45,757 bases of DNA. Source: Kiritimatiellales bacterium (GTDB taxonomy: Bacteria; Verrucomicrobiota; Kiritimatiellia; Kiritimatiellales; Pontiellaceae). The position numbers and the translations under genes are program-made. The DNA is taken from positions 1 to 45,757 of the forward strand of contig QKAU01000035.1 in NCBI GenBank assembly GCA_003246265.1, given 5' to 3'. Every line of letters begins with the position of its first letter. Position 1 is the stretch's first letter. The notes beneath the pieces are model-generated. The model ran no database searches and had not been told where the DNA came from. It saw nothing but the letters and a program-made list of their open reading frames with translations. Shown here piece after piece: positions 4,026 to 30,853 of the stretch.

Positions 4026-4029
<4 letters not shown>
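2935..4029 (-). CDS. Outer-membrane beta-barrel protein of the two-component operon
   Basis: A 364-residue protein with a signal peptide (residues 1-24, cleavage after ARA). The remainder alternates polar and aromatic residues in short strands and ends in Phe (GAGIDF), the usual C-terminal signal for insertion by BamA, so an outer-membrane barrel of perhaps 14-16 strands is likely. The start overlaps the stop of the response regulator as ATGA, so the two are translationally coupled. The kinase follows 12 bp later. A barrel placed between regulator and kinase is unusual: it could be a porin for the sensed compound, or a partner feeding the periplasmic sensor domain. No substrate can be named. 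An in-frame start upstream (4209) lies inside the regulator gene and is unlikely. Confidence 0.85.
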
Positions 4030-5429
<1,400 letters not shown>

Positions 5430-5531
5430 AATACCCCCATCCCGGCCATGCGGCCCGATCAGTCCCCGCGCCCCCAGTCCCCGCTACTGCGGTGCAGGCG
5501 CATGACGGGTACACCACCACCCAGTAAAACG

Positions 5532-5801
5532 TCACAACCAGCGCGCTTTTTTCCTGGCGGGGCGGCATTTCGGCTTCATCCACAGGTGGGTGAACTGGTA
5601 GCGGGCAAAGGCCGCGATCAGGAAGATGCCAGACGTGGCGAGCGAGATCAGGACGAGTGCGCGAAGCCGCTCCTCGCCGATCTCGCCGCCCTGGACGCGC
5701 CGATAGATCATGCCGAAACAGAGCATCCCGCACAGCAGGCTGGCAAAGGCGCCCACCAGGGCAGGAAATGCGGGACGATGCCTGTACATCAATGGTTTCA
5801 T
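5532..5801 (-). CDS. Small two-TM membrane protein
   Basis: An 89-residue protein with two hydrophobic helices (about residues 12-32 and 48-66) and a strongly basic C-terminus rich in Lys, Arg and Pro, which by the positive-inside rule puts both ends in the cytoplasm. I recognise no family. The ATG at 5801 is preceded by GGAAG and lies 61 bp after the DUF2202 gene on the same strand, so it may be read from the sigma-54 promoter at 6512-6527 if the hairpin at 5814-5840 does not stop transcription. The response regulator follows 102 bp downstream, and that gap would hold the regulator operon's own promoter. Confidence 0.65.
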   Translation of the reverse strand: MKPLMYRHRPAFPALVGAFASLLCGMLCFGMIYRRVQGGEIGEERLRALVLISLATSGIFLIAAFARYQFTHLWMKPKCRPARKKARWL

Positions 5802-5862: not shown

Positions 5863-6465
5863 CTAGCGGCCCAGGATGGCGTCCACCTCCTCCTGGGGGA
5901 GCACCTGGGCCGTGTAGGACTCCCCGGTGATGGCTTCGATGTTGCGCACGAAGGCCCGAAGATGGTTTTCCGACCCGGCAACCAGATTGGTGTATACGTT
6001 CAGGATGTCGGCCTTGTCGGTCCGCGCCATGGCCTCGGCGAGATCCTCGATATCGACCTCCTCGATCAACGCGCCCGCCATCAGTGCATCGAGTTCCGAA
6101 CCTAGTCCGGAAGCGACCAGCGCATCGAACAGGGTCTGGAGTTCCTCGTTGGCAAAGAGGCCGAAGTCCAGCGCGGGATCATCGAGGCCGTAGGTTCCCA
6201 GCAAACCGAGCACCGCCTCCATGTGGCGCGACTCCGACTCCGATATGTTTTCGAATATGCGCCGTCCGTATTCCGCGTGGAGGGTTGCGTACACATCATG
6301 CGCCAGCTTCTCTTCTTCGCGCAGGAAGAGCAGGTCCCGGCTCTCGGCCTCGGTCAGGACGGGCTGCTTTACGCCACCCTTTCCCTTCGCGGCCACTACC
6401 GGCTCCAACGCCCATCCAACAACCAGTCCGCAGACCGCCAATATGATTGCCCAGCGCTTGCTCAT
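5863..6465 (-). CDS. Exported DUF2202 ferritin-like protein
   Basis: A 200-residue protein with an N-terminal signal peptide or anchor (residues 1-25, ending VVAAKG) followed by a DUF2202 ferritin-like four-helix bundle. Likely metal ligands are visible: the Glu cluster 50-52 with H56, an ExxH at E78-H81 and E166/H168. The family is related to ferritin and rubrerythrin folds, but its reaction is not established; diiron chemistry in the periplasm is an inference. The start is secure: GGAGG lies 5 nt before the ATG. A sigma-54 promoter at 6512-6527 places transcription start about 36 nt upstream, near-identical to that of the secreted Gln/Asp-rich gene, so both are probably controlled by the regulator at 4026-5429. 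Confidence 0.88.
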   Translation of the reverse strand: MSKRWAIILAVCGLVVGWALEPVVAAKGKGGVKQPVLTEAESRDLLFLREEEKLAHDVYATLHAEYGRRIFENISESESRHMEAVLGLLGTYGLDDPALDFGLFANEELQTLFDALVASGLGSELDALMAGALIEEVDIEDLAEAMARTDKADILNVYTNLVAGSENHLRAFVRNIEAITGESYTAQVLPQEEVDAILGR

Positions 6466-6644: not shown

Positions 6645-7334
6645 TTATCGCGGAGCTACCCACAGGGCGGCATGGATCGTTTCGAAATCCTTTCCTGCGC
6701 GCATCCCTTCCCGGATGGCTTCGACCATGCGCTCCACCTCCAGGCCCGTCAGCCCGCGGTCGAGGCAATCCTCCATGATCTGGAGTACCTGCGCCTCCGA
6801 CATCCCTTCGAGGGACAAGGTCTCGCCCGCCTCGATCGCGTGGATCAGCCGCCCATAGCGGAATCCGCCGGGCCGGCCAAAGAGCCGGGCAAACGCCTCG
6901 GCGGAAATCCCGCTCTCCATGGCCAGGCAGGTATGCATCACCAGATGCCCGTGCTGGCTGCCGCGCGTAGTGCGGACCGCCATGACCAGGGCGTCCGCCT
7001 TCCTGAGCCCTTCCAGCCGGAGCTGGGCCGCCGCGCGCACTTCGTCCCACGCCACCCGCTTGGCCAGGCCCTCTTCGATCCTCAGCAGGACGCCCTCGAC
7101 CGGCAGCTGTTCGCCAAATGCAGCGCGGAGCGGAGCCAGCACGCCTTCCGCCTGCTCCACGGTCCATCCCCCCTGGCGGCAGGAGTCCAGCAACCGGTCG
7201 ATCCGGCCCGTCTCGATGCCTAGGCCGACGCCCCCTTCCCGCACAGCGTCCCATGCCCGGCCCTGGCCGCCTCCTACAGCGGCCGCGCAACAAAGCAGCC
7301 AAGCCACCATCCCCGTTCTATGCCTTGTCGTCAT
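6645..7334 (-). CDS. Secreted helical protein of the sigma-factor operon, internally duplicated
   Basis: A 229-residue protein with a signal peptide (hydrophobic core about 9-20, probable cleavage near residue 26). The mature protein is helical and appears duplicated: about residues 45-105 and 163-224 both end in a run of the form (I/V)xEG(L/M)-x4-(W/F)-(D/E)-(E/T)-(V/I). A loop with SQHGHLVMHTC (126-136) between the repeats is His/Cys-bearing. I do not recognise the family. It is the third gene of the operon with the sigma factor and putative anti-sigma factor; its ATG at 7334 overlaps the upstream stop by 17 bp, and an in-frame ATG at 7310 is an alternative start. Context suggests a periplasmic partner or regulator of the anti-sigma protein. 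Confidence 0.7.
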   Translation of the reverse strand: MTTRHRTGMVAWLLCCAAAVGGGQGRAWDAVREGGVGLGIETGRIDRLLDSCRQGGWTVEQAEGVLAPLRAAFGEQLPVEGVLLRIEEGLAKRVAWDEVRAAAQLRLEGLRKADALVMAVRTTRGSQHGHLVMHTCLAMESGISAEAFARLFGRPGGFRYGRLIHAIEAGETLSLEGMSEAQVLQIMEDCLDRGLTGLEVERMVEAIREGMRAGKDFETIHAALWVAPR

Positions 7335-7821
7335 CCCCGTAGACCTTGATTACCGTGTTCACCCGCCCGAAGCCATCCGGGCGGTGGGTGGCCATCCTGG
7401 GATCGGCCATCCACTGCTGGCCGTCGACCAGGAAAATGTATTCATGCCGACCTTCCGGCAGCTCGACCGTGGCGGTCCAATGCCCCGAAGCGTCAGGACC
7501 GGAGAGGACGATGTCGTTCTGCCGCCACTGGTTGAAGGTGCCCAGCAGCTCCACCCGTTCCGCACCGGGAGCGTGGAGCTCGAAATGGATCGCCACGCGC
7601 CCATCGGCCGGGACCGGCCTACCCACCTTCCCGACGGCAAAGACGATGAGCAGCGCGGCCGCGGCACCGGCCAGGGCCGGCGCAATCCAGCGCCCCTGCG
7701 AAGGCCAGAGGCCCCGGCGCCGACGCCAGGCGGGCAGCCGCTCCATGATCTCCTGCGCAAAGCCTTCGGGCGCCAGGGTCCGGTGCCTTTCCAGCCGCTC
7801 GACCAGTTCCTTCTCGTTCAT
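7318..7821 (-). CDS. Putative anti-sigma factor with extracytoplasmic CBM48/AMPK glycogen-binding-like domain
   Basis: A 167-residue single-pass protein. Residues 1-46 are cytoplasmic, charged and helical; 47-64 form the membrane helix; about 75-161 form an E-set/CBM48 (isoamylase early-set, AMPK-beta type) domain, seen in FxLxAPxAxxVxLLGxFNxW, the WTATVELPEGRHEYIFLVDG stretch and the terminal strand NTVIKVY. It starts with ATGA overlapping the stop of the sigma-factor gene, the usual arrangement for a sigma/anti-sigma pair. No zinc HxxxCxxC motif is visible, so the cytoplasmic part is not a ZAS domain. The external domain may sense alpha-glucan or act as a protein-binding module. The sigma-inhibiting role is inferred from layout. 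Confidence 0.8.
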   Translation of the reverse strand: MNEKELVERLERHRTLAPEGFAQEIMERLPAWRRRRGLWPSQGRWIAPALAGAAAALLIVFAVGKVGRPVPADGRVAIHFELHAPGAERVELLGTFNQWRQNDIVLSGPDASGHWTATVELPEGRHEYIFLVDGQQWMADPRMATHRPDGFGRVNTVIKVYGDDDKA

Positions 7822-8342
7822 GGCTGCAACATCTCCATCAAAAGATTGCGCGCACGCAGGGTTCTCATCTTGGCTGCGCTCACCCCGATGCCCAGGATCG
7901 CGGCGATCTCCTCGTAGGGGAGCCCCTCCATGTGCTTGAGCCGGAGCGGGGCCCCCAGCTTCGGCGGCAGCCGGGCAAGCGCCACTTCCAGCTCGCCGTA
8001 ATCGGCCGGCTGCTCCGACGCGCGGACCTCCGCCTCGCGCACGTGGCCCTCCTCGGCCCGGCGTCGGCGCGTCCGGCTGCGGAACAGGTTTTTCGTCTGG
8101 TTCGCGCAGATCCGGAGCAACCAGGCCTTGAAGCTGTATTCGGGATTGTACTGCTCGAGTTTTCCATAGGCCCGGATGAACGCCTCCTGCGCCATATCTT
8201 CCGCATCCTCCCGGTTGCGCGCCAGACTCGCGGCCAGCCCGAACACGGCATCCTGGTGGCGGCGCACCAGTTCCTCGAACGCGCACCGGTTGCCTGCAAG
8301 GCTATCCTGCGCCAATGCCTGGTCTGTCCGTTCGTCGGCCAC
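7818..8342 (-). CDS. ECF-type RNA polymerase sigma factor
   Basis: A 174-residue sigma-70 family ECF factor. Region 2 spans about residues 15-85 (FEELVRRHQDAVFGLA, then NREDAEDMAQEAFIRAY and FKAWLLRICANQTKN); region 4 spans about 117-170 (LPPKLGAPLRLKHMEGLPYEEIAAILGI plus the recognition helix). I choose the GTG at 8342 because AGGAG lies 6 nt upstream and the reading begins at the usual ECF length; an in-frame ATG at 8411 would add 23 residues with no family resemblance. It heads an operon with the CBM48 anti-sigma candidate (ATGA overlap) and a secreted protein. A promoter with a perfect TATAAT lies at 8534-8562. Confidence 0.9.
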   Translation of the reverse strand: MADERTDQALAQDSLAGNRCAFEELVRRHQDAVFGLAASLARNREDAEDMAQEAFIRAYGKLEQYNPEYSFKAWLLRICANQTKNLFRSRTRRRRAEEGHVREAEVRASEQPADYGELEVALARLPPKLGAPLRLKHMEGLPYEEIAAILGIGVSAAKMRTLRARNLLMEMLQP

Positions 8343-8533
8343 TCCCCGCTCCTTCCGTACACCGCAGGCCCGCCATCCGTCACATGCATGGCCCACGAAA
8401 CGCCTACGCACCGATTATCCACCATCGTACCGCCCGCGCAAGGCTCCGGAGCCGCTTTTTCCTGCGACCGCCCCGGGCACCGACCGGCGCGGAGAACGCA
8501 TGACCGGATTTTTATATTTTAATGGTTTGACGC

Positions 8534-8562
8534 ATTATACTATTTGAATATGTTGATGAAAA
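8534..8562 (-). promoter_or_regulatory. Candidate sigma-70 promoter of the sigma-factor operon
   Basis: On the minus strand TTTTCA (8562-8557), a 17-bp spacer and a perfect TATAAT (8539-8534) lie in an AT-rich patch of an otherwise GC-rich region, about 190 bp before the sigma-factor start. Confidence 0.45.
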
Positions 8563-16573: not shown

Positions 16574-18040
16574 CTATCTGCGCGGCAGGTCGTCCGGCCC
16601 CTTGGTGGGCAGGTCGGATTCGCCCATCAGATATTCGTCGACGCAGCGCGCGGCTTCGCGGCCTTCCGAAATGGCCCAGACGATCAGCGACTGGCCGCGG
16701 CGGCAGTCGCCGGCGGTAAAGACGTTCTCGACGCTGGTCTGGTAGTTCCGACCGGTCTTGATATTGCCGCGCGGGTCGAGTTCGACCCCCAGCGCCTTCA
16801 CCACGTTGTCGCGCTCGGGACCGACGAAGCCGAGGGCCAGCAGGACCAGGTCCGCCTTCCACTCCTTCATCGTCCCTTCGATCTCGTCCATGGTGGCGTT
16901 GCCCGTCTTGCGCTCGCGGTTGAACTCGACGTTGACGGTGCGGACGCCGGTGACGTGCTTGCCGTCGCCGAGGAACTCCTTGGTCAGCAGGGCGTAGGAG
17001 CGGGGATCCTCGGCCGCTTCGCGGTGCGAGGAACTGGTGCGCAGCTTCATCGGCCAGTAGGGCCACGGCTGGTGGGCCGGCCGCTCGCCGGGAGGCTGCG
17101 GGAAAAGCTCGAAGTTGACCACCGACCTGCATCCCTGGCGGATGGAGGTGCCGACGCAGTCGGAGCCCGTATCGCCGCCGCCGATCACGATCACGTGCTT
17201 GCCCTTGGCGGAAATTTTTCCTTCGACCTCGTCGCCCGCCACTTCCTTGTTCTGCTGCGGCAGGAACTCCATCGCGAAGTGGATGCCCTCCAGGTCGCGG
17301 CCCAGCACCGGCAGGTCGCGCCCGGTCGTGGAGCCGATGGCGAGGACCACGGCGTCGAACGCCTTCAGTTCGTCGGCCGGAACATCGGTGCCCACGGCGC
17401 AACGGGTCCTGAAGACCACCCCTTCGGCTTCCATGACGGCCAGGCGGCGGTCGATCACGCTCTTCTCGAGCTTGAAGTCGGGAATGCCGTAGCGCAGCAA
17501 GCCGCCGACGCGGTCGGCGCGCTCGAAGACGGTCACGCTGTGCCCGGCGCGGTTGAGCTGGTCGGCCGCGGCCAGTCCGGCCGGGCCGGAACCCACGACG
17601 GCCACCTTCTTCCCGGTGCGGACGGAGGGCGGCTCGGGCTTGACCCAGCCGCTCTTGTAGGCGTGCTCGACGATCATCTTCTCGATGTTCTCGATCGTCA
17701 CCGGCGGTTCGTTGATGCCCAGCACGCACGACTCCTCGCACGGGGCCGGGCAGACGCGGCCGGTGAATTCAGGGAAGTTGTTGGTGGCCGAAAGGACCTC
17801 GTAGGCCTTCTTCCAGAGCCCCTTGTAGGCGAGATCGTTGAATTCGGGGATGATGTTTCCGAGCGGGCAGCCGATGTGGCAGAAGGGGATGCCGCAATTC
17901 ATGCAGCGCGCCGCCTGCTCCTGCAGCTTCTTCTCGGAAAACGGCTCGTAGACTTCCTTGTAGTCGTGGATGCGCTCCTCCACCGGCCGTTCAACCGGGG
18001 TCTCGCGCTTGAATTCCTTGAATCCCGTAGGCTTGCCCAT
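16574..18040 (-). CDS. gltD: Glutamate synthase small (beta) subunit
   Basis: This 488-residue flavoprotein feeds NAD(P)H electrons to GltB for glutamate formation from glutamine and 2-oxoglutarate. The N-terminal domain has the two [4Fe-4S] Cys sets (C46, C49, C54, C58 and C97, C101, C105), followed by the FAD site [13 protein letters not shown] (149-161) and a second nucleotide site [10 protein letters not shown]. Length and motifs are those of normal GltD. The ATG at 18040 is 2 nt after the gltB stop, so the two are an operon. The product 2-oxoglutarate/glutamate node connects to the KOR/TCA operon further right. Confidence 0.96.
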
Positions 18041-18042
18041 TG

Positions 18043-22605
<4,563 letters not shown>

Positions 22606-22651
22606 AGAAAACCTCGTCTCTCTCGGGAAAATTAGCGGGGTAATTTGTACA

Positions 22652-22709
22652 TTGACCCCCGTCAAGTCAACCATTAGCGCGCCTGAATATGCCCCGCGCA
22701 ATGCCGGGG
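22652..22709 (-). promoter_or_regulatory. lpxB-gltB spacer: palindrome and hairpin
   Basis: TTGAC-CCCC-GTCAA (22652-22665) is a perfect inverted repeat 47-60 bp before the gltB start, in a stretch with TTGACT/TTGACG -35-like boxes; it could be an operator or overlap the promoter. CCCCG-N8-CGGGG (22692-22709) is a short hairpin 38-55 bp after lpxB and may end its transcript; no T-run follows. Confidence 0.4.

Positions 22710-28520: not shown

Positions 28521-30853
<2,333 letters not shown>

Follow-up and report, generated by a model that had tools for sequence, protein, structure and literature searches.

The stretch of DNA analysed here (the window, 45,757 nt) comes from a Kiritimatiellales genome of the Pontiella group, little-studied bacteria of the seafloor and sediment. 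On its minus strand, three genes follow one another: a GTG-started gene for an ECF-type sigma factor of 174 aa (7818..8342), a gene for a 167-aa membrane protein with a CBM48/AMPK1_CBM domain predicted to face outward, which is our candidate anti-sigma factor (7318..7821), and a gene for a predicted secreted, all-alpha protein of 229 aa (6645..7334). The TGA stop of the sigma gene and the ATG of the CBM48 gene overlap as ATGA, and the CBM48 and secreted-protein genes overlap by 17 nt. A promoter-like motif, GTGAC-N16-GTGTA (8358..8383, minus strand), stands 15 nt from the sigma start codon.

The region 3' of this trio, also on the minus strand, encodes a ferritin-like secreted protein of the DUF2202 family (5863..6465; 1.1e-48), a small membrane protein of 89 aa (5532..5801) that is conserved in two related loci (L043/L158) and has no Pfam family above cut-off, and an AtoC-like response regulator with a sigma-54 activator domain (4026..5429). 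A second copy of the motif (5510..5535, minus strand) lies 80 nt upstream of the regulator gene, making the regulator a candidate regulon member, and a histidine kinase gene (HATPase_c, 1492-2922) lies on the same strand as the regulator gene.

On the other side, an MMPL/RND-type transporter gene (start 8633) diverges from the sigma gene. Upstream of it, an AT-rich block (8500-8560) is conserved in relatives with the pattern AACATAT-TCAAATA..AATATGTCAAT..ATTAAAATATAAA and is probably the transporter gene's own promoter or operator. Elsewhere in the window, about 4.6 kb is open on both strands (18040-22635 plus and 18043-22701 minus), and a peroxidase-family gene (PF00141, 6e-71; 28523-30853, plus strand) has no motif upstream.

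Domain content and co-inheritance of the trio

The sigma factor matches Pfam Sigma70_r2 (5e-18, residues 25-93) and Sigma70_r4_2 (5e-12, residues 117-166), as well as the NCBIfam sigma70-ECF model (2.7e-26, 92.2 bits against a cut-off of 42.9), and its gene is syntenic in all relatives. It has regions 2 and 4, no region 3 and fewer than about 200 aa, the make-up of an ECF sigma factor. With the ATGA overlap and the one transmembrane helix modelled in the second protein, these matches bear out an earlier sequence-only reading of the locus, which had described an ECF sigma factor ATGA-coupled to a single-pass protein.

That reading had also proposed a three-part transmembrane signalling unit, and conservation of the trio had been set beforehand as its test. 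Among 40 near relatives (own genome included), the membrane and secreted proteins were found in the same 14 genomes, side by side, a count that takes in full-length or contig-cut relatives. Across 387 genomes of the phylum, the full-length membrane protein occurs in 12, and all 12 also have the secreted protein; these full-length matches (E <= 5.6e-46) are cleanly separated from the next best (2.6e-20), which covers the CBM48 part only. The 12 carriers come from several families of the class, with one genome belonging to another class. One further genome has the secreted protein only, on a contig that starts inside the secreted-protein gene. The overlap in occurrence of the two proteins has a P of 7e-22, ignoring shared ancestry, and the order sigma, anti-sigma candidate, secreted protein is the same in every complete case. 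Because of this co-conservation across 387 genomes, the proposed unit is well supported as a genetic unit.

A plasmid search returned no similar trio. The few plasmid CBM48 matches have no annotated or recognisable adjacent sigma gene, and one of them adjoins a 4-alpha-glucanotransferase-like gene.

A common motif upstream of the sigma gene and of nearby genes

The GTGAC-N16-GTGTA motif is present upstream of the sigma gene in all near relatives with sequence there, and also in relatives from other families, being degenerate in two of these and having a spacing of 17 in one. We trained a weight matrix on 16 sigma promoters only. All 16 upstream regions hold the exact motif, which ends 6-19 nt before the start codon, so that some transcripts may be almost leaderless. 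Applied to the fetched loci, the matrix found 39 sites, whereas column-permuted matrices found 0-2. Counted by hand, about 37 exact sites lie near the trio in the 14 carriers, and about 25 of them stand elsewhere than at the sigma promoter, against 0.3 expected from the site density elsewhere. In the window, only two sites score above threshold, those before the sigma gene and the response regulator gene, and this small number counts against the regulon reading. From this pattern, we infer that the sigma factor of the trio reads the motif, and the copy at 8358..8383 would be a putative autoregulatory promoter.

The motif-marked genes are of recurring types: a small Cys/Gly-rich secreted peptide, DUF2202, the response regulator and the small membrane protein. 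The peptide, rich in Cys, Gly and Lys, often ends in DGSC or GSC, and its gene lies directly 3' of the secreted-protein gene in the window's family and divergent from the sigma gene in others. DUF2202 relatives have the motif upstream in most related genomes, whereas the window copy lacks it; the protein has a PDB relative in MJ0754 (3q4o, 2.4e-38), and our literature search found no paper on DUF2202. For the 89-aa membrane protein, the motif lies 111 nt upstream in L043/L158. The response regulator gene is downstream of the motif in the window and in L156, and a similar site precedes its relative in L050/L156.

A twin-arginine-type [NiFe] hydrogenase small subunit gene is present in 3 of the 40 relatives. 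All three are carriers (genomes G021, G017 and G005), in which the gene has the motif upstream (L148 5145, L150 5512 and L155 719, respectively) and lies about 4-12 kb from the trio. Since its restriction to carriers has a P of 0.04, position and motif carry the weight of the hydrogenase argument. A further motif copy precedes hypB in G021 (L149), making HypB a target in one genome. In another locus (L046 7550-8050, plus strand), a motif copy lies upstream of a gene for a secreted 167-aa protein that is extremely Cys-rich and metallothionein-like; short relatives of this protein in other genomes are likewise Cys-rich.

We recognised no carbohydrate-active enzyme in the set of motif-marked genes. 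Rather than to polysaccharide breakdown, the predicted outputs point to a periplasmic function of redox or metal type, and it is mainly this that speaks against a simple starch-utilisation switch.

Counting against our reading, DUF2202 or peptide genes that carry the motif are still present in G013, an 85% complete genome in which no trio was found, and in G009, whose sigma gene is truncated, so that another sigma factor may read the motif in these two genomes or the genes may be relics. In G009, the N-terminal part of the sigma gene (L157 2624-3169, minus strand) runs into a Lys-rich tail resembling the one on the small secreted peptide. Neither the membrane nor the secreted gene is present and the DUF2202 gene with its motif is still there, in what looks like a deletion of the unit.

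The secreted protein

The product of 7334-6645 has a signal-like stretch at its N-terminus and falls into no Pfam family, in keeping with the secreted protein that had been read beside the sigma and CBM48 genes; Pfam searches with all members of its family gave scattered single weak matches only. AlphaFold2, run with 21 relatives, produced a 12-helix all-alpha model (pLDDT 91.3). Foldseek with this model gave zero matches at E <= 0.001, and a further structural look returned mainly designed helical repeats (Z <= 8.6, a range common for helical models); the protein thus has no clear natural relative in the PDB from which a known fold could be assigned. The internal repeat described in the sequence-only reading is not supported by the sequence: when five slices of the protein were compared as profiles in ten pairs, not one pair was significantly similar (the best had an E of 0.004 and a probability of 8%). 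The partner, called duplicated, is single-copy wherever found. The impression of repetition arises from the regular run of helices in the model.

It is possible, although we tend to doubt it, that the secreted protein belongs to the output of the regulon, as a structural protein of the periplasm or surface that stands outside signalling and whose place in the operon only sets its dose. Long Gly-rich C-terminal tails are found in many relatives from other families than that of the window, and other secreted regulon products are also Gly- or Cys-rich, as this explanation would have it. However, in the genomes examined, the secreted protein is never apart from the sigma factor and anti-sigma candidate, whereas other targets move or vanish, and in the window's family its gene overlaps that of the anti-sigma candidate. 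We favour a dedicated role for the secreted protein within the signalling unit.

The CBM48 domain of the membrane protein

A profile search confirmed the CBM48 domain that had been proposed in the 167-aa protein (residues 75-162, 7336..7599), with matches to AMPK1_CBM (PF16561, 4.7e-14) and CBM_48 (PF02922, 1.1e-8), both above curated cut-offs; the genome as a whole has no other AMPK1_CBM match. The fold agrees with the sequence: AlphaFold2 models one transmembrane helix (residues 46-66, 7624..7686) and, after it, a beta sandwich that in structure comes closest to AMPK-beta and other CBM48 domains (Z about 7 over 63-79 residues). Five Arg at 33-45 flank the helix on its N-terminal side, consistent with an N-in topology, and the CBM48 domain is predicted to face outward. 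The whole protein contains zero cysteine and so, as the sequence-only reading had noted, no zinc anti-sigma motif.

Within the unit, conservation is highest in the CBM48 part: mean pairwise identity there is 69%, whereas it is 63% in sigma region 2, 43% in the cytoplasmic part and 39% in the secreted protein. The proposed role of the CBM48 domain as the sensor is therefore plausible. W99, W137 and N155 are invariant in 21/21 sequences and correspond to AMPK W100, W133 and N150, which contact sugar and whose mutation disrupts glycogen binding (PMC4032982, PMC2642990). The AMPK K126 position is, by contrast, occupied by I/V/S/G/Q/L in the 21 sequences of the membrane family. Loss of this lysine is compatible with sugar binding, since starch binding was retained in a plant AMPK-beta relative that has neither K126 nor N150 (PMC4032982). 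Nevertheless, most of the soluble CBM48 proteins from the same phylum that we examined keep a lysine there, so that the sugar site of the membrane family appears altered. These soluble proteins have no membrane helix and no adjacent sigma gene, and we rejected them as further sensors. A glucan ligand, as proposed earlier, thus keeps three of four AMPK contact residues in its favour, and the lost K126 and the kinds of motif-marked genes count against it; we infer a glucan as a candidate ligand on this balance.

Rather unlikely, in our estimate, is a related explanation in which the same sigma and anti-sigma pair operates and the CBM48 domain, engaging no sugar, is a protein-protein module that binds the secreted protein, the latter being the true sensor in the manner of RseB. 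The strict co-inheritance and adjacency of the secreted protein, the lost K126 and the lack of a recognised carbohydrate enzyme among the motif-marked genes would fit such an arrangement. It leaves unaccounted for, however, that in the AMPK sugar site the two surface tryptophans and the asparagine are all invariant, and that the secreted protein diverges much faster than the CBM48 domain (39% vs 69%), a difference that one would not expect if the CBM48 surface had adapted to this protein. We therefore favour sensing by the CBM48 domain itself.

The cytoplasmic part and the anti-sigma question

The cytoplasmic part of the membrane protein (residues 1-45, 7687..7821), a possible minimal sigma-binding domain, is modelled with two short helices (3-12 and 21-28) and carries a conserved motif, PxxF-x3-VM-x2-LP. 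Class I anti-sigma domains (ASDI) have four helices, a three-helix bundle and helix 4 (PMC7406223); about 45 residues with two short modelled helices do not make up that bundle. In E. coli RseA, the window that matches best is helix 4; F21, A22, V25, M26 and L29 align with RseA sigma-2 contact positions 55, 56, 59, 60 and 63 (PMC7406223), in an alignment that is not significant alone, 293/2000 shuffles scoring as well. We thus did not adopt RseA homology for the cytoplasmic part: helix 4 is the right place, but the match is not significant. Among Pfam anti-sigma models, none matched the cytoplasmic part; Pfam and NCBIfam searches gave no RsgI family match, and a PDB search with the longer N-terminus of the relative L103 gave no matches. 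Because the RseA match is not significant, an anti-sigma function is drawn mainly from gene arrangement and architecture, which suggest that the CBM48 protein probably holds the sigma factor shut.

That the CBM48 protein instead binds carbohydrate at the membrane and shares a transcript with an unrelated sigma factor is very improbable: a cytoplasmic part of only about 45 residues that no anti-sigma model matches would fit this, but its motif is conserved in a protein that is otherwise a helix and a CBM, the relative L103 has a longer N-terminal part, the CBM48 start codon overlaps or abuts the sigma gene end in several families, and the gene order is kept in all carriers.

For the proposed anti-sigma factor, release of the sigma factor by proteolysis is possible and not specifically indicated, because this genome, like 14/14 control genomes, encodes a member of the site-2-type protease family (Peptidase_M50).

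Discussion

Altogether, we consider it likely that the trio forms a self-regulating pair of an ECF sigma factor and a membrane anti-sigma factor, with sensing by CBM48, a dedicated third protein and a local regulon. In this model, the CBM48 protein would hold the sigma factor at the membrane, its cytoplasmic residues 1-45 binding the sigma factor, and the periplasmic CBM48 domain would read a signal, most likely a carbohydrate with an alpha-glucan-like stretch, which the helical secreted protein encoded alongside might present or compete for. Once freed by signal binding or by proteolysis, the sigma factor would act at GTGAC-N16-GTGTA promoters, those of its own operon (positive autoregulation), of the Cys/Gly-rich peptide, of DUF2202 and of the response regulator, and in some species that of the [NiFe] hydrogenase.

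The closest parallel in design is found in the SigI/RsgI systems of Clostridium thermocellum, where, in the parts of the sources considered here, a sigma gene is likewise followed by that of a membrane anti-sigma factor with an extracellular C-terminal carbohydrate-binding module, and where autoregulation and a common promoter motif mark the regulon (PMC4711584, PMC6056542); the trio has a similar motif pattern, as judged from sequence. According to the same parts, SigI, which has no region 4, does not belong to the ECF sigma factors, whereas the sigma factor here has region 4, and RsgI-N has about 165 residues against about 45 cytoplasmic residues here, which sets the trio apart from the RsgI type. 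The RsgI modules described there are CBM3, PA14 or GH10 rather than CBM48, the regulons consist of cellulosomal enzymes whereas no carbohydrate enzyme was recognised among the trio's motif-marked genes, and those parts describe no conserved third secreted protein, which the trio has.

RpoE-RseA-RseB of E. coli is similar in another way, with an ECF sigma factor, a single-pass anti-sigma factor and a third exported protein in one operon. RseA, however, carries no CBM and has a class I domain of four helices. RseB differs from the all-helical protein of the trio and has no demonstrated relation to it; the model of the trio's protein has no clear natural match. With the glycogen-binding domain of the AMPK beta-subunit, the CBM48 protein has in common the sequence, the fold and the equivalents of W100, W133 and N150; it differs in being membrane-anchored and predicted to face outward, in the lost K126 equivalent and in having a sigma factor rather than a kinase as partner.

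Our literature search found no paper on a CBM48 or AMPK1_CBM anti-sigma factor, a large ECF reclassification lying outside its scope, and no work on sigma factors in Kiritimatiellota. Tentatively, the trio may represent an undescribed three-protein ECF class of the Kiritimatiellia and a related class, combining a CBM48 domain as outward sensor, a minimal anti-sigma factor, a helical exported protein of a new family and a periplasmic regulon of redox or metal type instead of polysaccharide enzymes.

To our knowledge, the sensors of most ECF sigma factors are unknown. The CBM48 domain is known from energy sensing in AMPK, and it would here join a short list of carbohydrate modules on anti-sigma factors. 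With known contact residues, a fixed partner and promoters that can be read from sequence, the signal, its relay and the output each become testable, and the trio would thereby give a handle on gene control in Kiritimatiellota.
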